Source: a bacterium (GTDB lineage: Bacteria > Armatimonadota > Fimbriimonadia > Fimbriimonadales > Fimbriimonadaceae). Taken from it: a DNA stretch of 64,000 nucleotides. The notes beneath the pieces were generated by a model that was not told the origin of the DNA, made no database searches, and was given only the letters and a program-made list of their open reading frames with translations. The stretch is from contig JAIXQR010000001.1 in NCBI GenBank assembly GCA_027485645.1, positions 675,632 through 739,631 on the forward strand, in the 5' to 3' direction. A program made the position numbers and the translations under genes. Below, piece after piece: positions 3,014-37,320 of the stretch (positions within the stretch are counted from its first letter, which is position 1; every line of letters starts with the position of its first letter).

Positions 3014-4122
3014 CCAGTCTTGTTCCGGCGCGAGGCGGCGTCTTGGAGCATGATGAACTCGCTCAGGTTCTCTTGAGTGAGCATGCCGACGAGGTCATCG
3101 CCTTCCATGACGAGGACCGGGTGTCTTCCGGCGGCGGCGAACTGTTCCGCGGCCCATTCGAGGTCGTCATCGGGGCGGCAGCGGTAGGCGTTTCGGTTCA
3201 TTCGACCGGCGACGTAGGCGTGCGGGCCATCCTCGGTGAGGCCGATAGAGAGTTCATTTCGCTCAAGGATGCCGAGCACTTCGCTGCCTGAAATCACGGG
3301 GAAGTCTGTTTGGCTACCAGCGATGAGCAGTTCGCTCGCTTCTTGTAGGGTGGTACCGTGCGACAAGGTCGCGAAGTTTCGCATCATCGCATCGCGCACC
3401 TTTCGGCCCGCGAGCAGGGAGCGGGTGACGGTAGAGGTCAACTCCTGTCCGGCGACAAGGAAGACGAAGAAGGCGATGAGCATCAGCACGACTTGGCTCG
3501 TGACAATGCCAACGATGCCGAGAATGATGGCCACGACTTGACCCACGCCAGCGGCGATTCGCGTTGCCCGCAATTCACCTAGTCGCAGCGAGAGCGCAGC
3601 CCGAAGGATTCGACCGCCGTCCATCGGAAAGGCCGGAATCAGGTTGAAAAGCGCCAGCGAGATGTTGGTGAAAAACAGCGCCGGCAGAATTCCGCCGACG
3701 CGGATGTCGGGTGAGAGTTCAAACACCTGCGGCGACAGCCACATGTACAGGTACAGCGCGGCCGCGATGACGACGTTTACGACCGGGCCCATGATGGTTA
3801 CCCAGAGTTCTTGCTTGGCGGTCGGACGGCTTTCTAGCAGAGCCACGCCGCCGATGGGATAGAGCGTGATGTTCGTGGTTTTGATGCCGTACCGCTTCGC
3901 CGTTAGAGCGTGCCCGAACTCGTGCAAGACCACGCAGAAGAAAATGGCAACGACGTAGAGTGGCCATTGCCAGCCGGCCTGTTTCTGGCCGGTCCAGCCG
4001 ATCCAGACCAGGAAAAGCAAGAAGGTGATGTGGAGCCGAACCGGAATTCCGGCTACCACCGCCACGCGAAATGCCCAGGGGCTTTCCGGTCGTTCGCTTT
4101 GCGGCTTTTCCGTTTCTGGCAT
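3010..4122 (-). CDS. Site-2 type M50 metalloprotease with two CBS domains
   Basis: This is a membrane-embedded zinc protease of the S2P/SpoIVFB type, which cuts transmembrane segments. The 370-aa protein has several hydrophobic segments, the zinc motif HEFGH (67-71) and the third-ligand motif PMDGGR (Asp about 168). Two CBS domains follow at about 245-360; they may sense adenylate ligands. The start codon shares one base with the stop of the phytase gene (TGATG), so it is the last gene of the prepilin-phytase operon. Its substrate cannot be told from sequence; membrane-anchored regulators are a possibility. Confidence 0.9.
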   Translation of the reverse strand: MPETEKPQSERPESPWAFRVAVVAGIPVRLHITFLLFLVWIGWTGQKQAGWQWPLYVVAIFFCVVLHEFGHALTAKRYGIKTTNITLYPIGGVALLESRPTAKQELWVTIMGPVVNVVIAAALYLYMWLSPQVFELSPDIRVGGILPALFFTNISLALFNLIPAFPMDGGRILRAALSLRLGELRATRIAAGVGQVVAIILGIVGIVTSQVVLMLIAFFVFLVAGQELTSTVTRSLLAGRKVRDAMMRNFATLSHGTTLQEASELLIAGSQTDFPVISGSEVLGILERNELSIGLTEDGPHAYVAGRMNRNAYRCRPDDDLEWAAEQFAAAGRHPVLVMEGDDLVGMLTQENLSEFIMLQDAASRRNKTG

Positions 4123-5114
4123 CAGTTCTTTAGTTTGAGCGTTCGCGCAACATCACGCCAGCTCAAATAAAGAAAACGCCGATTCTTGCTGTCCATCACC
4201 ACCATTAGGCCATCTGGGAACTTCGGACCGAGGTTGGCGGAGGTGACGGCGATGCCGTCGGTTTCATCTGCGCCGGCCGTGAACTGGCCGAGGCGGGTTC
4301 CAGTGAACGAGGTGACGGTATAAACGCTCCGGTTCTTCAACTGATCCGTAAAGACCGCGAATCGTTTTGCCCCTTTCTCCCACAGGCCGATACCTTCGTG
4401 GTCACCTTTGAAGTCGGTGTTCCAGGCGGGCCGGGCGTCCATGTAGCCGTTTGGACGATCTTGCAGGACGAGCTGGCGATTGCCGTAAGTTTCGTCGCTG
4501 TAGAAGGCGCTGATGCCGTCGACGGAAGTGGCGATCGATTCGATCTCTTTACCACCCCGGAACTGGCCGGTGCGTCCGACGAAGATCGCGTCGATCTTGG
4601 CAGTCGCTGGGTTGACCTTAAGTTGGTATTGCTCCAGGTATGACTCGGTGAGGCCAAGTTTGGGGCTGACGAGGGCATAAAGGTTGCCGGTCGTCTTGGA
4701 CTTCCAGAGGGCGATGCCCATTGGCTCGCCGTAATCGGCGGTGCCTTTCATGGCGACTTCGGTATTGCCGGTGAGATCGGAAAGCGTGCCCTTAGGATCG
4801 ATTTTGTAAATGCGGAGTCGGCCCTGCAGGCGCTCGGTGCAAACGGCGATGTCGAGCCCGTTCCAATTCTGATGGACGTCGACGTTATTCGGTCGATCCA
4901 GCCCAGAAATTTTTTGGACGATTTTGCCGTCGAGGTCAAAAACGTAAAGACCGCCGGTGGGTCGCTTCACCTTGTTCGTGCCAATCACGCGGGACTGGGA
5001 AGGATTAGACTTGTTGACCCAAATGGCTGGATCATCGGCATCGTCGGGTACCGGCTGGGTGGCCAGCGTTGGAGGGATGAAAGGGATGGAGGCGACGAGC
5101 AGAACGTGGATCAT
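4122..5114 (-). CDS. Secreted beta-propeller phytase (3-phytase family)
   Basis: This enzyme removes phosphate from phytate outside the cytoplasm. The 330-aa protein begins with a hydrophobic signal peptide (residues 1-19). It carries the two hallmark beta-propeller phytase motifs, DDADDPAIW (24-32) and NNVDV (76-80), followed by propeller repeats with conserved acidic residues such as GKEIESIA and KGDHEGIGLW. The frame extends upstream for 171 codons with no family similarity; the start chosen here gives the signal peptide. It lies 67 bp downstream of a prepilin gene and is coupled to the M50 protease. A phosphate-scavenging role fits the Pho-like boxes in this cluster. Confidence 0.88.
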   Translation of the reverse strand: MIHVLLVASIPFIPPTLATQPVPDDADDPAIWVNKSNPSQSRVIGTNKVKRPTGGLYVFDLDGKIVQKISGLDRPNNVDVHQNWNGLDIAVCTERLQGRLRIYKIDPKGTLSDLTGNTEVAMKGTADYGEPMGIALWKSKTTGNLYALVSPKLGLTESYLEQYQLKVNPATAKIDAIFVGRTGQFRGGKEIESIATSVDGISAFYSDETYGNRQLVLQDRPNGYMDARPAWNTDFKGDHEGIGLWEKGAKRFAVFTDQLKNRSVYTVTSFTGTRLGQFTAGADETDGIAVTSANLGPKFPDGLMVVMDSKNRRFLYLSWRDVARTLKLKN

Positions 5115-5130
5115 GTCGGTGTAGACGAAG

Positions 5131-5162
5131 CGATGGCTACCGGGTGTACCCGGTAGCCATCG
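5131..5162 (-). terminator. Perfect 14-bp hairpin between prepilin and phytase
   Basis: A perfect inverted repeat has 14-bp arms (5131-5144 and 5149-5162) and a 4-nt loop. It sits 19 bp after the prepilin stop and 16 bp before the phytase start. No T-run follows on the minus strand, so it may act as an attenuator or 3'-end stabiliser for an abundant prepilin mRNA rather than a full terminator. Confidence 0.7.
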
Positions 5163-5181: not shown

Positions 5182-6165
5182 TCAGTTGACTGGGAAGCCA
5201 GTCGCTGGGTCGACAACAACGCTGCCGCCGAGCGAGTAGGCCTGCTTGCCCCAAGCGTAGTTGCGGACATCGAAGGTCTGCAGGGTGTTTCGGAACTTCG
5301 CGGACGAGTCTGCGAAGACGTAGTTGTTGCCCTGGTCGAATCGGCCACCGTTCGTGTAGCGAAGGGTGTGGGTTGCGCCGCCGTTGGTGGTTCGGAGTTC
5401 GCAGTCGAAGACCTGACCGACGGTGCCCTTTCCTGCCCACTTTCCGGTGGCGGTGTTTGCGCCGCTAACGGTGAGAGCTTCGAGTGGAAGATCGGCCGCG
5501 GAAGGGAGCGAAGAACCGCTGAGGTCTCGCTGTCCGCTTCGTCCGATACCGAAAGCTGGTCGGTAGCTTCGGAACTCGCCGCCGGCAGTGGTCTGCATGC
5601 AGAACTGCTTTTCGGTTGCTGGTGCAACGAGGATGGTCGAGCTTACGCCGTCGATTGCGGTTGCGCTAACAACGTTCGCGGTGTCGCTGTCCTGTCGCTT
5701 TCGACCGATGATGGCCTGGTTTGCAACGTAGGAAATTCGTCCGACCTGGAGGGTGTAGACGCCAGCCTGGTAGCCCTGCTGAACGCAGCCGTTACCCTGG
5801 ATTCCTGGCTTGCCGAAACCTCGGTTGTTGTTGGCTTCGTTGAAGCATCCTGGTGCCCATCCACCGATCGAGTCAGCTGGGGAAACGAAGAGCTGCTCGC
5901 TCTTGATGTATGGAAGGACCATCCAGCTCCAGTGAACTTCGTTTGCAGATGAGTTGTTTTCGCGGTGGTTGCTTGGCGGGAACATATCGTCCGTATCAGC
6001 GATGTAAAGCTGAAGTCCGAGGCCGATTTGCTTGGTGTTGCTGAGGTCAGCGGTCTTCTTAGCGGCCTGCTTAGCCTGAGCAAAAACAGGGAATAGGATA
6101 GCGGCAAGAATTGCGATGATTGCAATAACAACCAGAAGTTCGATTAGGGTAAATGCCTTTTTCAT
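5182..6165 (-). CDS. Type IV/T2SS-like prepilin with N-terminal methylation motif
   Basis: This is a major pilin/pseudopilin-type protein of 327 aa. The class III leader is very short (MKKA|FTLIEL), with Ala rather than Gly before the cleavage site, then the hydrophobic alpha1-N helix VVIAIIAILAAILFPVFAQAK. The C-terminus keeps the DG-type motif region (NNYVFADSSAKF) of the DUF1559-like family common in Planctomycetes and Armatimonadota. The ATG at 6165 is chosen over an upstream in-frame start because AGGTGAG lies just before it and the leader then fits. A Pho-like box lies about 50 bp upstream, and the gene follows the halogenase. Confidence 0.92.
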   Translation of the reverse strand: MKKAFTLIELLVVIAIIAILAAILFPVFAQAKQAAKKTADLSNTKQIGLGLQLYIADTDDMFPPSNHRENNSSANEVHWSWMVLPYIKSEQLFVSPADSIGGWAPGCFNEANNNRGFGKPGIQGNGCVQQGYQAGVYTLQVGRISYVANQAIIGRKRQDSDTANVVSATAIDGVSSTILVAPATEKQFCMQTTAGGEFRSYRPAFGIGRSGQRDLSGSSLPSAADLPLEALTVSGANTATGKWAGKGTVGQVFDCELRTTNGGATHTLRYTNGGRFDQGNNYVFADSSAKFRNTLQTFDVRNYAWGKQAYSLGGSVVVDPATGFPVN

Positions 6166-6195
6166 GTAGCTCACCTGCGAAGTCGCAGACGTGAA

Positions 6196-6230
6196 AGAGT
6201 GTTCCTTTGCCACGTTAAGCATATGTTAAG
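6196..6230 (-). promoter_or_regulatory. Pho-like box upstream of the prepilin gene
   Basis: On the minus strand CTTAACAT and CTTAACGT start exactly 11 bp apart (6230-6223 and 6219-6212). A weak -10 (CACTCT, 6201-6196) follows after 10 bp. The first repeat contains the TAA stop of the halogenase gene, so the operator overlaps the end of the upstream coding region. Confidence 0.6.
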
Positions 6231-7926
6231 AAATCATCATTTCTTCTAGGCGGTCTTGATTCTGATGAATCACCTCTGACTGATGCGGAGTAGCGATGGG
6301 GAAGTTTGGGTGTCCCGATTGAGATCGGCCGAGCACCCATCCAGAAACGACCATCGCCTCTAGAACTTCTAGCCCGTTTGTGTAGGTCGCTGGGGATGGG
6401 CAGGCGCTAGCAAGGTAGCCACGGACTTCCTCGGCGGTCCGTTCTGATTGCAGAAATTCGGCTAGTCGCTGGTACACGCCAACCAGCGGCAAGACTTGGT
6501 CTCCGCGTCGAAGGGTTTGCTTGACCAAGATTTGACCGTTGTGAAAGGCCGGCACGGTTTCTATTTCGGCGCCACTGAGGTCTGCCTTGAAGCGGTTGTA
6601 CTTCGAGAGTTCCCAGGTCGCTTCTCCGCCGCCGAAGAACTGCGTTAGCTGCTTGGTCGCGCCGAGGGCGAAGGTGGCGACCCGGGCGACGCGCCAGTCG
6701 TCGTTGATAAATCCGCCGGTGCCAAGCCACTGAAACGCTTCATTTGGTGAGAGTTCTAGACCCGCGTCCTTTGCGATTTCAGAAACGAACTCTTTGAGTT
6801 CGGAGAAGTGTCCGTTGGCGGTGTACCAGTAGTCAGCGAAACGAATATGCTGCCGGATCCGCTTTTGCTGAGTCACTTCATAGTGAGATGCTAGCCACGA
6901 CGGGTCGTTACCACCCTTGAGATGATCGACTAGGATGTACGCGAGTTCGCGTGCGCCGGTGTGAGTGAGGGTGAGCCCGGCGGCGAGAATGGGGTCGGCG
7001 AATCCTGCCGCCTCGCCGACGAGGTACCAATTTGGACCGGCCATTTGGTTTGCGACGAAGGACCAGTCTTTCGTTCCGTGAACCGGACCTTGCTGAGTGG
7101 CTTGACGAAGGAGCTTCGAGATAAGGGCTTCGCTTTGCACCGCTTCAAGATAGATTTCCTCGGGTCGGAGCTTCTTGTTTTTGTAAACTTCGGCCGGCAT
7201 GACCAGCCCGACGCTGGCGCGGGTCGCAGAAATTGGGATGAACCAAATCCAGCCGTAGCCGAGGCTCATCACATTAACGCGAGTCCCGCCTTTGCCTAGG
7301 GTTACCGCCCACTCGGCGTCGTCCCAGTAAGACCAGAACGCGACGTTCTTGAGGCGGCTTGGTTCGTCGACCGTGACGCCGAGAGCCCTTCGCAAGATGG
7401 CTGAGTTACCACTGCCATCGACATAGTATTTCGCGGTGACTTCGCCCTCGGGAGTCATCAGGCCATTGATCACGCCGTCTTGGTGACGAACCTGAGTGAC
7501 GCCGGTGTTTTCTCGCACTTCACAACCGCACTCCCGGGCGTGGTCGAGGAGGATCTTGTCGTAGATGGAGCGCTCTACTTGGAACGCAGTCTTGCGGCGT
7601 TCACCTTCGTACTTTGCCGGACGCTCGCTTCCGACGAAGTCTTTACCGGGGAGAAACTCGAAATCCCAAAGGTCGTCGGTCTGGCCCCATCGGTAGGTGG
7701 CTCCAATTTTGATCGGGAAGTTGGCCGCTTCGACTTTCTCCCAGACGCCCATCTCTTCGAGGATGCTTCCGATAAGCGGCAACTGGCTCTCGCCGACATG
7801 CTCACGGGGAAACTGTTCGCGTTCTAATATAACAACTGATGCATTTGGGGCGTACTTTTTGATTAAAGTACCGAGGGTACTCCCGGCAGGTCCGCCCCCG
7901 ATAATCGCGACATCAAAGTTATGCAT
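6226..7926 (-). CDS. Flavin-dependent halogenase (tryptophan-halogenase-like)
   Basis: This FAD-binding enzyme probably oxidises chloride or bromide to halogenate an organic substrate, with a partner flavin reductase elsewhere. The 566-aa protein has the N-terminal dinucleotide fold GGGPAGS (10-15), the motif FPREHVGESQLP (39-50), a candidate catalytic lysine at about 73, the diagnostic WxWxIP motif (W226-P231) and the second FAD motif GEAAGFADP (304-312). The C-terminal 200 residues are not recognised; carrier-protein-type halogenases also have such tails. It is 15 nt after the lipoprotein gene, so likely in one operon under the Pho-like box. A non-halogenating oxygenase of the same fold is the main alternative. 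No biosynthetic cluster is adjacent. Confidence 0.8.
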   Translation of the reverse strand: MHNFDVAIIGGGPAGSTLGTLIKKYAPNASVVILEREQFPREHVGESQLPLIGSILEEMGVWEKVEAANFPIKIGATYRWGQTDDLWDFEFLPGKDFVGSERPAKYEGERRKTAFQVERSIYDKILLDHARECGCEVRENTGVTQVRHQDGVINGLMTPEGEVTAKYYVDGSGNSAILRRALGVTVDEPSRLKNVAFWSYWDDAEWAVTLGKGGTRVNVMSLGYGWIWFIPISATRASVGLVMPAEVYKNKKLRPEEIYLEAVQSEALISKLLRQATQQGPVHGTKDWSFVANQMAGPNWYLVGEAAGFADPILAAGLTLTHTGARELAYILVDHLKGGNDPSWLASHYEVTQQKRIRQHIRFADYWYTANGHFSELKEFVSEIAKDAGLELSPNEAFQWLGTGGFINDDWRVARVATFALGATKQLTQFFGGGEATWELSKYNRFKADLSGAEIETVPAFHNGQILVKQTLRRGDQVLPLVGVYQRLAEFLQSERTAEEVRGYLASACPSPATYTNGLEVLEAMVVSGWVLGRSQSGHPNFPIATPHQSEVIHQNQDRLEEMMIS

Positions 7927-7941
7927 TTGTTAAGACTTCGA

Positions 7942-8298
7942 TCACTGCATCGTGAACGTGCCGGTGCGACCATCTTGGAAGGTGATCTCCAAATTGAGGC
8001 CATCACGCTTGTAGGTCCAAATCTGCTGCTGACCGTTGAGATCAACTGTAATCTGGCTCGCCTTCTCATCCATCGTGTACGTGCCCGATTTTGCGCCGGT
8101 CGAATCGGTGAAAGTCATCTCGTTTCCAGCATCAAACTGAACCTGCATGCCTTCGCTACGTCCGGTTCCGCTGAAAAGTCCCCATGGGGTGCTCGTCATC
8201 TCTCGGGTTTGCTCGGAACTCACTGGGGCGGAGGACTCTCCGCAACCAACTATTACAAAAGCCGATAGAATAAGAACCGCACACAGAACTCGTCGCAT
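7942..8298 (-). CDS. Small lipoprotein, first gene of the halogenase operon
   Basis: The 118-aa protein has a lipoprotein signal peptide ending in the lipobox VIVGC (Cys19), so it is predicted to be lipid-anchored. The mature part is a small beta-rich domain with the recurring pattern TFTDSTGAKSGTYTM and WTYKRDGLNLEITF, which resembles lipocalin-like or META-like stress lipoproteins, but I cannot assign a family. It precedes the halogenase by 15 nt. A Pho-like box and a -10 ending 6 nt before the ATG indicate leaderless, possibly phosphate-responsive expression. Confidence 0.75.
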   Translation of the reverse strand: MRRVLCAVLILSAFVIVGCGESSAPVSSEQTREMTSTPWGLFSGTGRSEGMQVQFDAGNEMTFTDSTGAKSGTYTMDEKASQITVDLNGQQQIWTYKRDGLNLEITFQDGRTGTFTMQ

Positions 8299-8339
8299 GG
8301 GTTAAGTAAGCCGCCTTTGACGGTTAACATGCTGTTAAG
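8299..8339 (-). promoter_or_regulatory. Pho-like box and leaderless promoter of the lipoprotein-halogenase operon
   Basis: On the minus strand CTTAACAG (8339-8332) and GTTAACCG (8328-8321) start 11 bp apart. Exactly 10 bp later comes CTTACT (8310-8305) as the -10, then 6 nt to the ATG. Another CTTAAC starts at 8306, still on the 11-bp grid. No canonical -35 is present, as expected for a PhoB-type activated promoter. Confidence 0.62.
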
Positions 8340-8347
8340 GTTCATTT

Positions 8348-8434
8348 GTTATGAACGATTTAACGAAAACTTAACCCTCGCTTAACAACGTCGGTGCCTA
8401 TGCTAGGCAGTCCGGGTAGCCGGAGGAGACTATT
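8348..8434 (+). promoter_or_regulatory. Pho-like box array and promoter of the second prepilin gene
   Basis: Four repeats start at 8348 (GTTATG, degenerate), 8359 (TTTAAC), 8370 (CTTAAC) and 8381 (CTTAAC), each exactly 11 bp apart. The last 8-mer ends at 8388, and after 10 bp comes TATGCT (8399-8404) as the -10. The 5' leader of about 25 nt carries GGAGGA (8422-8427), a strong ribosome-binding site for the GTG at 8435. Confidence 0.68.
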
Positions 8435-9337
8435 GTGCACAAGAAGCAGGCCTTTACTTTAATTGAACTTCTCGTCGTTATCGCGATTATTGCGATTCTC
8501 GCCGCCATCCTATTCCCAGTTTTCGCTCAGGCAAAGTCTGCGGCAAAGAAGACGGTTTCTCTCAGCAACCAGAAGCAGATCGGCACCGCGGTCATTCTTT
8601 ACAGCTCGGACTACGATGACATGCTCCCAGAAACCGGTTGGATCGGACCATGTTCCGCTCCTGGCGGCACCGCTGGTTTGAACGACGAGTTCTCCGGCGT
8701 TCAGAGCTTCCTTACCGGCATCTTCCCATACAGCAAGAACTGGCAGATGCTCGCTTGTCCAGCCGACGCGGACAAGGGCGTTTTCGGTAAGCCAGGCGAA
8801 GGCTGCTTCGAAAAGATGTTCCTCGCTGCCGGCGTCCCAGGCGCCTACGTTGGCATGGCCGACGTGAACAACGGTCTCGAGTTCGTTAAGGTTCTGCCTG
8901 CATCCTACGCTGGCAACTACCTGCTCATGCCAGGCTACCGACGCGTTAGCGAAGGTGCGTGGACCGGTGATCGAGGCCGAAACCTCAGTCAGATCGCGAC
9001 TCCAGCCAACATGTTCTACTCGACCGACGTAGGTTCGACCCGAGTTAACGGTCTCAACTTCTCCGGTTGGTACACCGTCCCAGGTTATGGCAACCTCGGA
9101 AACGGAACCGGTCGATGGGAGCGAGGACAGCGACACACGGGCGGCCGAAACTGGTCGTTCGCAGATGGTCACGCAAAGTACCAGAAGGAACTGGATTACC
9201 GAACCAGCACCGGCACGGCTAAGTCGATCCGACAGCTCGTTTGGGAATACCAGCAGGCCGGAATCTTCACCTACTGGGAAACGGAAACCAAAGACTACTG
9301 CGGCTTCCCAACCAAAGAAGCCGGCTGCGACCGATAA
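8435..9337 (+). CDS. Type IV/T2SS-like prepilin, probably highly expressed
   Basis: This 300-aa prepilin has a leader (MHKKQA|FTLIEL) and alpha1 helix nearly identical to the prepilin at 5182-6165, then a globular part with the conserved KQIG segment and a C-terminal WSFADGHAKY motif of the DUF1559/H-X9-DG type. It is predicted to be cut and methylated by a prepilin peptidase and assembled in the envelope. The start is GTG with GGAGGA upstream. Ten of its twelve prolines use CCA, unlike housekeeping genes here, which suggests very high expression. It is controlled by four 11-bp-spaced Pho-like repeats and followed by a strong hairpin terminator. Confidence 0.93.
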   Translation: MHKKQAFTLIELLVVIAIIAILAAILFPVFAQAKSAAKKTVSLSNQKQIGTAVILYSSDYDDMLPETGWIGPCSAPGGTAGLNDEFSGVQSFLTGIFPYSKNWQMLACPADADKGVFGKPGEGCFEKMFLAAGVPGAYVGMADVNNGLEFVKVLPASYAGNYLLMPGYRRVSEGAWTGDRGRNLSQIATPANMFYSTDVGSTRVNGLNFSGWYTVPGYGNLGNGTGRWERGQRHTGGRNWSFADGHAKYQKELDYRTSTGTAKSIRQLVWEYQQAGIFTYWETETKDYCGFPTKEAGCDR

Positions 9338-9419: not shown

Positions 9420-10283
9420 ATGCTTAAAAAGTTCTTACCTGCCATCGCATTCGTCCTCCTGGCCGTCGCCGGATACCTCTGGGCCTCCCGGGGAGGAGAA
9501 ATTCTCAAGTCCAACGAGTCTCCGGACCAAAAGTACGTTGACGCAACGGTGGGGGCGGCATTCAAGGGGGTTGCAGAAACGGCAAGCATCGAACCTGCAC
9601 AGGCACGTGAGTTCCTAAAGAAAGCCGAAGAAGCTAAGCCAGAGAACGGATTTACGGATTACCTTCGGGCTTCGGTTGCCGCAAAGGAAGGCGACACCGC
9701 CGCGGCCACGAAGTCATTGGTTGATGGGAATGCGAAGAAAGACGTGATTCACTACATTCCCGAACTGCCGGCGTACGAGAACGAATCGAGTCTGAGCGTG
9801 CTACGCGCTCTGTCGAATCACGGCGAGAAGCTCGCCACAGAAAAGGGCCCGGAGGCAGGAGAGTATTTTGCCGCGCTCCGAACCGCCAGCTACCGAATCA
9901 TCGGCCTTGAACCGATTACGACGCTGAGCGTGGCATCGGGAGTGTCTTTGATCAACCAGGTCTACACCGATGGCATCAAGCATTACTCCAAAACCGCACC
10001 AGATACGGCGAAGGCTTGGGAGAAAGATCAGGCGGTCTTCAAGACTTGGAGCAAGGCTTACCGGGAAAAGCAAAGCACCCAGCTTGGCAACGTCATCGGC
10101 GAGGTTGGAAAAGAAGCTGGGCTGAGCAAAGCCGAGATCGAAGATGTCGCCATCAAGAAACCGCTCGCGGATGAAGCGAAGCAAGCCAAAGTGGACGAGC
10201 TGATGGCTCAAGTGGTTGTGAAGGAGCAAAAGATGCTCCGCGAGATCGTTGGCACTCTTCCGAAGATTGACGCCAGCAAGTGA
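9420..10283 (+). CDS. Hypothetical membrane-anchored helical protein
   Basis: The 287-aa protein has an N-terminal signal anchor (LPAIAFVLLAVAGYLWA) followed by a largely alpha-helical, lysine- and glutamate-rich domain. The stretch around EFLKKAEEAKPENGFTDYLRA resembles a TPR-like helical pair, but no family is recognised. The ATG at 9420 is preferred over an in-frame start 48 nt upstream because that one lies inside the terminator hairpin. It is separated by only 10 nt from the phosphoesterase gene, so the two probably form an operon. A role in supporting or tethering the phosphoesterase is only a guess. Confidence 0.7.
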   Translation: MLKKFLPAIAFVLLAVAGYLWASRGGEILKSNESPDQKYVDATVGAAFKGVAETASIEPAQAREFLKKAEEAKPENGFTDYLRASVAAKEGDTAAATKSLVDGNAKKDVIHYIPELPAYENESSLSVLRALSNHGEKLATEKGPEAGEYFAALRTASYRIIGLEPITTLSVASGVSLINQVYTDGIKHYSKTAPDTAKAWEKDQAVFKTWSKAYREKQSTQLGNVIGEVGKEAGLSKAEIEDVAIKKPLADEAKQAKVDELMAQVVVKEQKMLREIVGTLPKIDASK

Positions 10284-10293
10284 GAAACAAAAG

Positions 10294-12669
10294 ATGAACA
10301 AGAAGCTATCCCTTCTCGCCGGAATTGCCGTTGTTGCCTCGGCCGTAGCCTTCACCGCGTTCCAGCCAAAAATCGCGACTTACTTGCCTTCCGGTTGGCG
10401 CATTTCTCCGGCTGGGCCAAGCGAGACCATTGGCGATCTCGCGGCTGGCGGCGTTACGAGTCCGAACGGAAAATGGATTGCCTTCGTTTCGGCCGGACAA
10501 GGGAATCACCAGCTATTCGTAGTTGATGCTAAGACTGGCAAAGTCGCGAAGAAGTTGAGCCTTGGCCGAGCTTGGATTGGCATGGCTTGGATGGCCGACT
10601 CAACCAAGCTGGTCGTGAGCGGTGGGACGGGCAATAACTTCCACATCGTATCCGTCGCGCTGGATGGCGAACTTAAGCTGGAAAAGACGATCCCGGTTAC
10701 CGAGATCAAGGGCAACACCGGCTGGCTCGCTGGTTTGCAGCTAACCGCCGATGAGAAGCACGTTGTGCTGGCCCTGGCCGCTGGCGACGAGTTGCGAAAG
10801 ATCGACCTCGAAACCGGTGCGACGGTTGCAAAGCTGGCGTTGCCTGTTGGCTCTTCTCCGTACCAAGTTCGCAGGGTGGGCTACGACATGGTCGTCACGC
10901 TCCAGGGCGCTGAGCGAGCGATTCGAGTTGATGCAACGGACTTTACGATCACCAAGAGTTACGCCACCGGACGTCACCCGAACGACCTTCTGGTGCAGGG
11001 CGAGCGACTGTTTGTTTCGTGCGGAAACGATGACACGGTCGATGTTTTCGACCTCTACACCGGAACCCGGGAAGAGCGAATCAATGTTCGACCTTGGCCG
11101 AACGCACCTGCGGGCTCAACGCCGCACGCTCTGGCGGTGACCGCAGACGGAAAGCGACTTTACGTCGCAAACTCGGACAACAACTGTGTCGGCATTCTCA
11201 ACATCGCCGACCGAGTTGCGACTCGGGTGGAAGGATTTGTACCGACCGGCGCCTATCCGACCGCGTTAGGCGTTCTCGCCGATGGCAAGACGCTCCTTGC
11301 GGCTGCCGGCAAAGGTTTCGGCACTGGTCCTAACGGCGACACGGACAAGATTGATCCGATTGCGCCAAAGGGATATCCGTACATTGTTGTCCTTCTGAAA
11401 GGCTTGCTCACGAAGGTTGACGTTCCGAAGGGAACGGAGCTCGACAAGATGTCGAAGCAAGTTCGCGACCTGTCTCCGTACCGAGAAGGCGTCGTTGAGA
11501 AGCCGCTGACCGCGCCAAAGCCTGGCACCAACCCGATTCCGAGCCGCTTGGGTGACCCATCGCCGATCAAGCACGTTCTGTACATCATCAAGGAAAACCG
11601 AACCTACGACCAGATGTTCGGCGACCTGAAGAAGAACGGGAAGCCATACGGCAACGGCGATCCGAAGCTGACTTTGTTTGGAGAAGACGTCGCTCCGAAC
11701 CACCGCCAACTCGCGATGGACTTTGTTTTACAAGACAACTTTTATGCCAGCGGGGAAGTCTCGGTTGACGGGCACCACTGGAGCAAGGGTGCCTACGTTC
11801 CGGACTTTATGCAGCGCACTTGGCCGCAGCAATACAGCGGAAAGGGAACCCCGCGATTGAGTCTTGAGCTGTCCACGACGCCATCTGGCTTCATTTGGGA
11901 CCATGTTCGGCGCGCCGGAAAGACTTATCGCACGTACTACTATCACACCACCGATCGCCGAAGCGACGCTTGGGCGGCGGCAAGATCGAAGAACGAGCGC
12001 GACTACAAGGCGGTCGACATTTTTATCGACGAGTTTAAGAAATTCGAAGAGCAGAAGAACATGCCGGACTTCATGGTCATGGCGCTGAGCGAAGACCACA
12101 CCAGCGGAACCCGGGCCGGGGCGTTTACGCCGCAGGCATCCGTGGCGAGTAACGACTACGGACTTGGCAAGCTCGTTGAGACGATCTCGAAGAGCAGCTA
12201 CTGGTCGAAGTTTGCGATCTTCGTTCTCGAAGATGACGCGCAGAACGGCCCAGACCATGTGGACGCTCACCGAACCGTGAGCTTGGTGATTTCGCCATAC
12301 ACGCGAAATGCGGGTCACGACAAAACGCACTACACCACGACGTCCACTGTGCGAACGATCGAGCTGATTCTTGGCTTGCAGCCAATGAGCCAGTTCGATG
12401 CGGCCGCGACGCCGATGTATCGCAGCTTCCGAAACACGCCAGACCTAACGCCGTACGTCGCGAAGCGACCGAAGACGGATCTGGATGCGAAGAATCCTCC
12501 GGCGAAAGAAACTCCGCTGTTGGCGGCAATTGACTTCTCGGAGCCAGACCAGCTGACCTTGAGTCAGGAAATCGCGCTCAACGAAGCGATTTGGCGGAGC
12601 GTGAAGGGCAACGTTCCTTATCCCGGCGCGGTTCGCCGGTATGGGATGGACGTTCGAGACGAAGACTGA
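10294..12669 (+). CDS. YncE-like beta-propeller fused to a phosphoesterase domain
   Basis: The 791-aa protein starts with a signal anchor (residues 1-24), then a seven-bladed YncE-like propeller (about 40-390) with blades such as VANSDNNCVGILN, then a phosphoesterase domain (PF04185 type, about 430-770) with the signature HVLYIIKENRTYDQMFGDL and the catalytic-core segments VDGHHWSKGAY and EDDAQNGPDHVDAHR. That family includes phospholipase C and acid phosphatases. It is probably exported and cuts phosphoesters outside the cytoplasm, which fits the Pho-like control of the neighbouring genes. The ATG at 10294 gives the signal anchor; the frame continues upstream only into the previous gene. Confidence 0.85.
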   Translation: MNKKLSLLAGIAVVASAVAFTAFQPKIATYLPSGWRISPAGPSETIGDLAAGGVTSPNGKWIAFVSAGQGNHQLFVVDAKTGKVAKKLSLGRAWIGMAWMADSTKLVVSGGTGNNFHIVSVALDGELKLEKTIPVTEIKGNTGWLAGLQLTADEKHVVLALAAGDELRKIDLETGATVAKLALPVGSSPYQVRRVGYDMVVTLQGAERAIRVDATDFTITKSYATGRHPNDLLVQGERLFVSCGNDDTVDVFDLYTGTREERINVRPWPNAPAGSTPHALAVTADGKRLYVANSDNNCVGILNIADRVATRVEGFVPTGAYPTALGVLADGKTLLAAAGKGFGTGPNGDTDKIDPIAPKGYPYIVVLLKGLLTKVDVPKGTELDKMSKQVRDLSPYREGVVEKPLTAPKPGTNPIPSRLGDPSPIKHVLYIIKENRTYDQMFGDLKKNGKPYGNGDPKLTLFGEDVAPNHRQLAMDFVLQDNFYASGEVSVDGHHWSKGAYVPDFMQRTWPQQYSGKGTPRLSLELSTTPSGFIWDHVRRAGKTYRTYYYHTTDRRSDAWAAARSKNERDYKAVDIFIDEFKKFEEQKNMPDFMVMALSEDHTSGTRAGAFTPQASVASNDYGLGKLVETISKSSYWSKFAIFVLEDDAQNGPDHVDAHRTVSLVISPYTRNAGHDKTHYTTTSTVRTIELILGLQPMSQFDAAATPMYRSFRNTPDLTPYVAKRPKTDLDAKNPPAKETPLLAAIDFSEPDQLTLSQEIALNEAIWRSVKGNVPYPGAVRRYGMDVRDED

Positions 12670-29776: not shown

Positions 29777-31306
29777 TTAACCGTGATGGCAAGTGCAATC
29801 TTCATGAACGGCATACATATCAAGCCATCCCTGATCCAGACTGACCTTCATCTTTTCGTAATACCCTTGCGCCGTGCCGTAATCCATGGTCGGGTTCTTG
29901 TGCTTGATGCCCTTTGCCGCAAGCATCAAGTCGAAGAACTCCACGTTGCGGGTGAGGCCCTTGATCATTTCACTTCCTGGTCCGAGAGCGGTCACCATCA
30001 CGTGCTCGGCGGTGTGGTTACCGCTCGTCCACGTCACGGCCGTGTGGTTGCCCAGAATGTTCGCCATGGTCATTCCGCTAGCTTTCAGGAAGCCGCTGAT
30101 GTTGAAGGGCCCTTGTCCCTTTTGTCCCGCTACGATGGCCGCCGCTTCTGCCGCGCTGAGTTCCAATCCGAGATCGGCCTTGACGATGTCTCGAACTGAA
30201 TCTGCGGTCGGGCTGGCGCCGAACTTTCGAGCCAGAACTTCGTAGCTCGCCTTCATTCCGTTCACGGTCAGGATGCCCTTGTTCGAGTCCGTGTACTCCT
30301 CACCCATGCCGTTCAGCGATGGTCCGCCGGTGGCGTGGTCTGCCGTGATGATGACGAGGGTTTCTTTGTCCTTGAGCGCGAACTCGACCGCAACCTTAAC
30401 CGCTTCTTCGAATGCGATCTGATCGTAAACCAGGGAAGCCAAGTCGTTCGCGTGGCCGGCGTGGTCAACCTTTCCGCCTTCAACCTGAAGCAGGAATCCG
30501 TTCTTGCTATCCTTCAAGTTGTCGATCGCATGCTTGGTCATTTCGGCCAAGGTCGGGACGGTCTTCTGAAGCTCTGGACTGTTGTTTCGGTCAACCGAGA
30601 ACGGCAGGTGGCTGTCCGAGAAGATTCCGAGAACCTTCTTGCTCTTCGTCGCCATCAAGGCTTCTCGGTTCTTGACGACCGTGTAGCCCGCCTTTTCGAA
30701 CTCTGGGTACATATCGCGCTTGTCTTTTCGCTTGTCGCCCGCGAAGTGGCGGTTGCCTCCGCCCATGAGCACATCAACGCCAGACACGAGGTACTTCTCG
30801 GCAATGATCGGCTCAAGGTCGCGGCTGACAATGCTGACGGCAAACCCGGCGGGGGTTGCGTGGGTAATTGTCGTGGTTGTGACGAGACCGGTTCGGACGC
30901 CCTTTTCGTGCATCAGCGTCGTCAGAGTCTTCAACGCGGTCAGATCGGGATACATGTTGATCATCCCGTTGAAGATTCGCTGCCCGCTACCCCAAGTGGA
31001 ACTCGCCGCCGCGGAGTCGGTGACGATGGAGTTGAGCGACCGCGTTGCCTGGAGACCGTTGGTGACGAACTTTTGGTCCATCAGCCAGCCCCAGTAAGAG
31101 GACTTTCCACCGTTGAGCTGAGACAGGACATCCACGATCCCGAGGGTCTGCATCGCCATGCCATCGACGACCAAGAAGATGATGTTCTTGATCTTCGACT
31201 GCTTCGAGCCCATGCCCTGGAGAGAGGCGAACGCGCCTGCTCCCGATGCGATGCCGGCGGCACCCGCAATACCCGTACCCAAAAGTGAACGTCGCGACAG
31301 CTTCAT
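29777..31306 (-). CDS. Tat-exported alkaline phosphatase, PhoA family
   Basis: The 509-aa enzyme removes phosphate from monoesters outside the cytoplasm. The N-terminus has a twin-arginine signal (SRRSLLG plus a hydrophobic stretch). The metal-binding FLVVDGM (Asp49), the nucleophile region TDSAAASS (Ser98), VEGGKVDHAGHAND and ITADHATGGP are all present and typical of PhoA. Upstream is a Pho-like box with two TTAAC repeats 11 bp apart, then CAGAAT ending 6 nt before the ATG. This is the best functional anchor for reading the repeats as phosphate-responsive. Confidence 0.95.
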   Translation of the reverse strand: MKLSRRSLLGTGIAGAAGIASGAGAFASLQGMGSKQSKIKNIIFLVVDGMAMQTLGIVDVLSQLNGGKSSYWGWLMDQKFVTNGLQATRSLNSIVTDSAAASSTWGSGQRIFNGMINMYPDLTALKTLTTLMHEKGVRTGLVTTTTITHATPAGFAVSIVSRDLEPIIAEKYLVSGVDVLMGGGNRHFAGDKRKDKRDMYPEFEKAGYTVVKNREALMATKSKKVLGIFSDSHLPFSVDRNNSPELQKTVPTLAEMTKHAIDNLKDSKNGFLLQVEGGKVDHAGHANDLASLVYDQIAFEEAVKVAVEFALKDKETLVIITADHATGGPSLNGMGEEYTDSNKGILTVNGMKASYEVLARKFGASPTADSVRDIVKADLGLELSAAEAAAIVAGQKGQGPFNISGFLKASGMTMANILGNHTAVTWTSGNHTAEHVMVTALGPGSEMIKGLTRNVEFFDLMLAAKGIKHKNPTMDYGTAQGYYEKMKVSLDQGWLDMYAVHEDCTCHHG

Positions 31307-31346
31307 GCTTTCATTCTGCCTGAGATCACGTTAACGTACTGTTAAA
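31307..31346 (-). promoter_or_regulatory. Pho-like box and leaderless promoter of the alkaline phosphatase
   Basis: On the minus strand TTTAACAG (31346-31339) and GTTAACGT (31335-31328) start 11 bp apart. After 9 bp comes CAGAAT (31318-31313) as the -10, then 6 nt to the ATG. No canonical -35 is seen. The arrangement matches the lipoprotein promoter at 8299-8339. Confidence 0.68.
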
Positions 31347-31399
31347 TGCCTTGGCTGATACCGCTAGAGCTGATGGATTTCGCTGTCCGGGCTCACGCC

Positions 31400-37100: not shown

Positions 37101-37320
37101 TGTCCGGGTTCTACTTCTGCAGTTAAGGGAATGTTACGCCTTGGGTAGTCGACGGCTTTTTTGCTCTATCCTGCGCGTCTAATAATGGTGGTTGCCAGAA
37201 GCGTTCCAGACTCGTGTTTCAGCGTTATGCGAGAGACTTATCCTAGGCATCTCAGGTTTGGGTACACGCAGCCTGATTGTGGAAACTGGTTGACCACAAC
37301 TATCAGAGGACAAGGGCACG
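37101..37320. other. Intergenic region of 220 bp
   Basis: I see no gene here. It contains a T-rich stretch (37157-37162) without a convincing hairpin, and GAGGA with AAGG just before the ATG at 37321, which could serve as a ribosome-binding site. A pair of GTTA(A/C)G elements 11 bp apart (37122 and 37133) points the wrong way for any gene. Confidence 0.5.

Follow-up and report, generated by a model that had tools for sequence, protein, structure and literature searches.

Between the starts of a small lipoprotein gene and a prepilin gene lies a compact region of 136 bp (8299–8434), for which the original prediction proposed two Pho-like repeat arrays pointing in opposite directions. The question raised by this locus is whether the region is a two-sided phosphate-starvation promoter and, if so, what part prepilins may have in the response. 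The region was analysed within the window, i.e., the whole stretch of 64,000 nucleotides (64 kb), and compared with related genomes of the family Fimbriimonadaceae. The motif and its spacing, its association with pstS, phoA and the purple acid phosphatase gene, and the conservation of the gene pair and of its boxes were all computed.

Repeat arrays and the family Pho box

The gene coordinates confirmed the divergent arrangement: the ATG of the lipoprotein gene (8298, minus strand) and the GTG of the prepilin gene (8435, plus strand) flank the 136 bp. Arrays pointing both ways were also present, with an exact 11-bp period, and each strand holds at least two direct 8-bp repeats with 3-bp linkers. 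On the prepilin side (8359–8388, plus strand) the array consists of three units, TTTAACGA-aaa-CTTAACCC-tcg-CTTAACAA, located at 8359–8366, 8370–8377 and 8381–8388, with TTAAC cores at 8360, 8371 and 8382, 11 bp apart. On the lipoprotein side (8321–8339, minus strand) it consists of two units, CTTAACAG-cat-GTTAACCG, at 8339–8332 and 8328–8321, whose TTAAC cores at 8338–8334 and 8327–8323 are likewise 11 bp apart. Between the arrays a perfect inverted repeat, GTTCAT-TTGTT-ATGAAC (8340–8356), was found, unchanged in the nearest species (G044) and not seen in G062 in the form GTTCAT-N5-ATGAAC; it is possibly the operator of another regulator.

With one mismatch at most, the pattern TTAAC-N6-TTAAC occurred nine times in the window against 1.29 expected, a number reached by none of 100 shuffles. 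Genome-wide, the exact pattern gave 17 rows and the reversed pattern 4. The plus-strand array is the sole perfect three-unit array of the genome, and the perfect triple was found only nine times, in seven genomes, among 85 genomes of the family (0 for the reversed control). These nine are the one described here, its copy in G044, two before pstS (L061 and L064), three beside other prepilins (L058, L059 and L060, that of L059 pointing away from its prepilin) and two with no assigned gene (L057 and L062).

The strongest PstS homologue from each of 63 family genomes, partial and paralogous matches being left out, was used to define the promoters of pstS. TTAAC-N6-TTAAC (at least 9 of 10 bases) was present within 300 bp upstream of pstS in 60 of the 63, compared with 3, 10, 3, 2, 2 and 9 of 63 for the control periods 8, 9, 10, 12, 13 and 14, respectively, and with 0–2 of 63 in twenty Markov shuffles of the same upstream regions. 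The loci with no box were L094, L098 and L110, the last with just 87 bp before the contig end; L082 gave no usable row, and the column counts therefore have n = 59. The divergent PstS paralogues of G018, G043, G017, G038 and G006 (second matches) carry one in-frame stop codon each.

A matrix was trained on 57 pstS sites, with this genome and G044 left out. Its best six sites in the window were 6213–6232 (minus strand, score 26.3), 8368–8387 (plus, 19.9), 7917–7936 (minus, 18.5), 37121–37140 (minus, 15.5), 31329–31348 (minus, 14.1) and 8322–8341 (minus, 13.0). In 100 Markov copies of the window the highest scores had a median of 10.9, a 95th percentile of 17.9 and a top value of 20.2; the sites at 6213, 8368 and 7917 exceed the 95th percentile, and only the first beats every copy. 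Since the scores of the lower boxes are within the range of the Markov copies, these boxes gain weight only from their genes. Within the 136 bp, the plus-strand score of 19.9 was reached by none of 400 shuffles of the region, and the minus-strand score of 13.0, which is within the best-score range of the 64-kb Markov copies, by one.

The same motif precedes this genome's own pstS (27.2) as it does the pstS of the clade, and elsewhere in the genome boxes were found before genes for a purple acid phosphatase (17.4) and for the regulator closest to PhoB (18.8). In the window, the box at 31329–31348 precedes an alkaline phosphatase gene, phoA (29777–31306, minus strand; PF00245, 247 bits). Boxes were also found at a phoA-like gene of G056 and at metallophosphoesterase-like genes of G069, G072 and G073 (with a Pfam assignment for G069 only). 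The pstS promoters, phoA, the purple acid phosphatase and regulator genes, the genes of the locus and the conserved gene pair described below together support, at the level of sequence, the proposal that the region is a compact divergent promoter with activator arrays of the Pho type.

Two further observations concern matches of the motif. The box at 37121–37140 has no sensible gene downstream on its strand and is perhaps due to chance. Two near-identical elements, CCCTTAACAAAYTCTTAACTTTAG, lie 2.7 kb apart in L073 (G000:C1:840295 and 842971), one of them preceding an ORF that resembles murA by eye; they match the box with no usual -10 and may be something else.

Spacing of the -10

The original prediction placed the last 8-mer of each array exactly 10 bp from a candidate -10, with no -35 on either side, and considered this geometry hard to explain by chance. 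The distance was measured correctly on both strands and the -35 is indeed lacking (best hexamers, 2/6 and 1/6), but the conclusion drawn from the geometry did not hold. TATGCT (8399–8404, plus strand), conserved in G044, matches TATAAT in 4/6 positions, and CTTACT (8310–8305, minus strand) in 3/6, with no A at position 2; for this composition, matches this good at a fixed place have P values of about 0.05 and 0.21, respectively.

In the pstS promoters of the clade, a -10 of the form NANNNT was found at offset 15 from the last TTAAC, which corresponds to 8 bp after the last 8-mer, in 50 of 59 cases, and TANNNT in 35 of 59; only 3 of 59 have the -10 at 10 bp. Among 13 box promoters listed for this genome, NANNNT stood at offset 15 in seven cases, at 16 in three (one of them also at 15) and at 17 in three, namely the prepilin side at 8435, as its only one, and two others that also have it at 15. 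One of the remaining promoters has NANNNT at 13 only and two have none. On the minus side of the divergent region no NANNNT occurs at offsets 13–19.

The 10-bp argument is weak because the rule is quoted for E. coli and is not followed by this clade, whose mode is 8 bp, and it was rejected as evidence; as the hexamer matches are near chance quality, their coincidence on the two sides is modest evidence only. CTTACT was likewise rejected as a sound -10; transcription from it would begin roughly at the ATG of the lipoprotein gene. The features that chance can hardly account for are the repeat array and its conservation, not the spacing of the -10.

In many of the Pho promoters a start codon follows a few nucleotides past the -10, with 12 of 39 first in-frame ATGs at 4–9 nt; examples are pstS promoters, positions 8305–8298 of the window and L068 near C7:63239. 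Such start codons suggest leaderless or very short-leader transcripts.

Genes of the locus and conservation among relatives

Leftward, the gene order is lipoprotein, FAD-dependent halogenase-like protein, second prepilin and phytase, all on the minus strand. The lipoprotein (7942–8298) belongs to no Pfam or NCBIfam family and is predicted as a small eight-stranded lipocalin-like barrel (AlphaFold2 pLDDT of 78–91 from residue 41); the fold searches gave common barrel folds only, and no function was therefore drawn from them. The halogenase-like protein (6226–7926; PF04820) is preceded by a Pho-type box at 7917–7936 (18.5; 23.0 in G044). The second prepilin (5182–6165, scanned as 5182–6174) scored over the cut-off for both PF07963 and PF07596 (28.0 bits), and its box at 6213–6232 (26.3; 24.4 in G044), which straddles the end of the FAD gene, forms with the -10 AACACT (6203–6198) the best promoter of the window (30.7). 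Both boxes had been missed by the original prediction. The phytase (4122–5135, start approximate) matched PF02333 with 93 bits.

Rightward, on the plus strand, the order is prepilin, secreted gene, propeller-phosphoesterase and 3-keto-disaccharide hydrolase. The prepilin (8435–9337) has the type IV prepilin N-terminus (PF07963, 36.5 bits, cut-off 21.2) and the H-X9-DG motif (TIGR04294, 20.5 bits, cut-off 19); it is below the cut-off of DUF1559 (PF07596, 16.9 vs. 23.3 bits) and far below that of GspG (TIGR01710, 28.9 vs. 88.85 bits). Its predicted structure, with a mean pLDDT of 36, was not used. The secreted gene (9420–10283) has no Pfam family and resembles by eye the gene that follows the prepilin in related loci, with N-terminal likeness in L275 and L276. 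The next gene (10294–12669) encodes a beta-propeller joined to a PF04185 phosphoesterase, as assigned by Pfam, with homologues in L143 (95% identical), L197 (68%), L145 (60%) and L144 (61%); a scan of the genome contigs gave one close relative and otherwise mostly matches to a short propeller stretch. No secretion-system core genes were found in the locus. The phytase and the phosphoesterase fit a phosphate-scavenging locus. Genes were called by a longest-ORF rule, which gave some false frames (e.g., in L144), and the coordinates used were checked by eye.

The 136 bp are 96% identical (131/136) to those of G044, with no gaps, and the five differences avoid every TTAAC core as well as TATGCT. 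For comparison, neighbouring genes are 44–82% identical at third codon positions, two other spacers 68% and 80%, and some short spacers 95–100%; when a 136-bp window was slid along the alignment, 18 other positions were equally or more conserved, the highest-ranking one lying in the second prepilin. The public label of G044 (CAMCWC010000010.1), Chthonomonas calidirosea, looks wrong, as the sequence was placed in the genus of the window genome, with many Fimbriimonas-like relatives.

A profile of the lipoprotein run against the 85 genomes gave nine strong homologues, the other matches having E values of 2e-4 or worse, and in all nine the gene is divergent to a prepilin. A phosphoesterase-like gene follows the lipoprotein in six of the nine loci, as judged by alignment for G062, G049 and G006 and by N-terminal likeness for G080, G081 and G061; in this genome (G000) and G044 the phosphoesterase sits in the gene row of the prepilin instead. 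The divergent regions have clear boxes on both sides in three species, with prepilin-side and lipoprotein-side scores of 19.9 and 13.0 here, 20.2 and 13.0 in G044, and 17.2 and 22.8 in G062, where both sides have a -10 at offset 15. Boxes are weaker or absent in the other six: 18.2 and 8.1 in G068, 10.4 and 9.5 in G049, one side each in G080 (10.1) and G006 (9.2), and none of 8 or more with the pstS matrix in G081 and G061. Among 400 shuffles of each region, the best boxes of the two sides were reached by 0 and 1 in this genome, 0 and 4 in G044, 0 and 0 in G062, 2 and 4 in G049, and 31 and 10 in G006. Because the lipoprotein/prepilin pair is kept in 9/9 loci and the boxes are patchy, the pair is older, or has been kept more stably, than Pho control from both sides.

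The case against control of both sides is that the minus-strand score of 13.0, considered by itself, is no higher than chance can give in 64 kb, below the 17.9 of the 95th percentile of the Markov maxima, and that this side has two units only and no -10 of the clade type. Pho control might then be one-sided, with only the plus array functional, the minus units being a chance match or a remnant, or the lipoprotein gene using another promoter. This we regard as rather improbable, since the minus box was reached by just 1 of 400 region shuffles and is unchanged in G044, and since the stronger box of the pair in G062 (22.8, -10 at offset 15) belongs to the lipoprotein homologue.

Regulator, prepilins and comparison with known systems

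Three OmpR-type regulators of the genome scored over the PF00486 cut-off. The best candidate gave 229.4 bits with the PhoB model TIGR02154 (cut-off 296.2) and 231.8 bits with MtrA. PhoU is present in the genome; neither a PhoR kinase nor a pstB gene was located there, and no PhoR-type kinase was tied to the candidate regulator. A repeat period near 11 bp is typical of the binding sites of OmpR-family regulators in general, so that the TTAAC motif alone does not name the regulator. Another member of the family, of the MtrA or WalR kind, might own the repeats, the genes answering envelope stress and not phosphate; the slightly higher MtrA score and the envelope nature of pilins and lipoproteins point that way. 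The occurrence of the motif before 60 of 63 pstS genes, and also before phoA, purple acid phosphatase and metallophosphoesterase genes, makes such a regulator unlikely. Chance repeats in an AT-rich spacer are least probable by far: TTAAC is short, the -10 matches are of chance quality and single boxes elsewhere may be fortuitous (17 vs. 4 control rows genome-wide), but the only perfect triple of the genome, nine window matches where 1.29 were expected, conservation of 131/136 positions, an independent matrix and orthologous boxes in G062 all stand against them.

The 136 bp are thus very probably a back-to-back Pho-regulon promoter, controlled by a PhoB-type regulator and serving organophosphate scavenging together with prepilins. 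We infer the binding regulator, activation on starvation as the direction of control, the exact starts and the role of the prepilins, as follows. Phosphate starvation would lead to a phosphorylated PhoB-family response regulator, most likely G000:C3:648691, which would occupy the TTAAC repeats on both sides in a head-to-tail arrangement, take the place of the -35 and bring RNA polymerase to a nearby downstream -10. The prepilin at 8435–9337, the secreted gene at 9420–10283 and the propeller-phosphoesterase would be induced rightward, and the lipoprotein, the FAD enzyme, the second prepilin and the phytase leftward, the leftward genes gaining further activation from the boxes at 7917 and 6213. 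The encoded proteins would obtain phosphate from extracellular organic phosphates, and the prepilins may build or serve a surface fibre or a secretion pseudopilus.

The prepilin N-terminus has 75 matches in this 3.2-Mb genome. Boxes scoring at least 14 lie upstream of 10 of the 75 in the right direction and of 4 in the wrong one, a difference that is not significant (Fisher P = 0.079); partial palindromy of some boxes inflates the reverse-direction count. Elsewhere in the genus, a prepilin begins no more than 200 bp downstream of 17 of 49 distinct period-11 sites and of 5 of 30 sites at the control periods 9 and 10, i.e., 17 at one spacing vs. 5 at two; the contrast of fractions is again not significant (Fisher P = 0.068). 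The 49 sites all come from loci that were read, with the rows of this genome left out, the control loci covered 30 of 37 rows, and 5 of 18 period-9 control sites lie in pstS promoters themselves.

The strongest argument for prepilins as putative Pho targets is recurrence at like places in the sequence. Prepilins with boxes recur beside a gene for a Clp ATPase (G000, G044 and G073) and after a NamZ-type gene (G000 and G056), and look-alike prepilins with boxes occur in G044, G064, G067 and G068; the members of these groups were taken as orthologous by eye, on the basis of neighbouring genes and N-termini, without trees. These recurrences suggest that in the Fimbriimonadaceae the starvation response also turns on a set of pilin-like surface proteins. 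More tentatively, the Pho response might command dedicated H-X9-DG prepilins, in the settings of this divergent pair, the Clp ATPase neighbour and the position after the NamZ-type gene, which with the lipoprotein and the propeller-phosphoesterase would form an induced surface fibre handling organophosphate-cleaving enzymes, that is, exporting, displaying or binding them. If true, this would be the first function for a large prepilin family that has none. A tandem row of seven short prepilin genes (133–166 aa) was also observed at G000:C4:95516–99045.

A search of the available literature found nothing linking DUF1559 prepilins to phosphate and nothing relevant on H-X9-DG. Some DUF1559 proteins of Rhodopirellula have been tied to salt, cold and heat shock in the available text on that genus. 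The genome of Fimbriimonas ginsengisoli has 79 PulG-type genes and PhoB/PhoR, which the accessible part of its description does not connect (PMC4072686). Nor did the search find a Pho regulon described for this family of Armatimonadota. The present result provides this family with a specific Pho box and promoter spacing, and it links part of a very large and unexplained group of prepilins, with 75 matches here, to a nutrient signal.

As described in the available portions of PMC1906773 and PMC4415409, the Pho box of E. coli PhoB also consists of tandem 11-bp direct repeats upstream of the -10, although the unit sequence differs. The distance to the -10 quoted for E. coli in the former source is 10 bp (PMC1906773), which TATGCT on the plus side matches and the clade, with its mode of 8 bp, does not. 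The box of the cyanobacterial PhoB, SphR, in Synechocystis PCC 6803 and relatives is given in the same excerpt as at least three tandem 8-bp units of the consensus CTTAACCT, with 3-bp linkers (PMC1906773). Units and linkers have the same lengths as here and likewise stand before pst and phoA genes; unlike SphR, the present system belongs to another phylum, its pstS -10 sits 8 bp past the last unit, and its probable targets include prepilins, a lipocalin-like lipoprotein and a propeller-phosphoesterase. In the sections available, the Hxc type II secretion system of Pseudomonas with LapA (PMC7035377) is a case of starvation genes that join a pilin-type secretion apparatus with a phosphatase, and Caulobacter ElpS with its type II system (PMC2996285) one of a starvation lipoprotein joined with phosphatase activity. 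In contrast to both, the present locus has no secretion-system core genes and encodes an H-X9-DG prepilin that scores far under the cut-off of GspG. These comparisons are analogies and not memberships. The control region itself belongs to a type already described; of wider interest are the prepilins that it seemingly controls.
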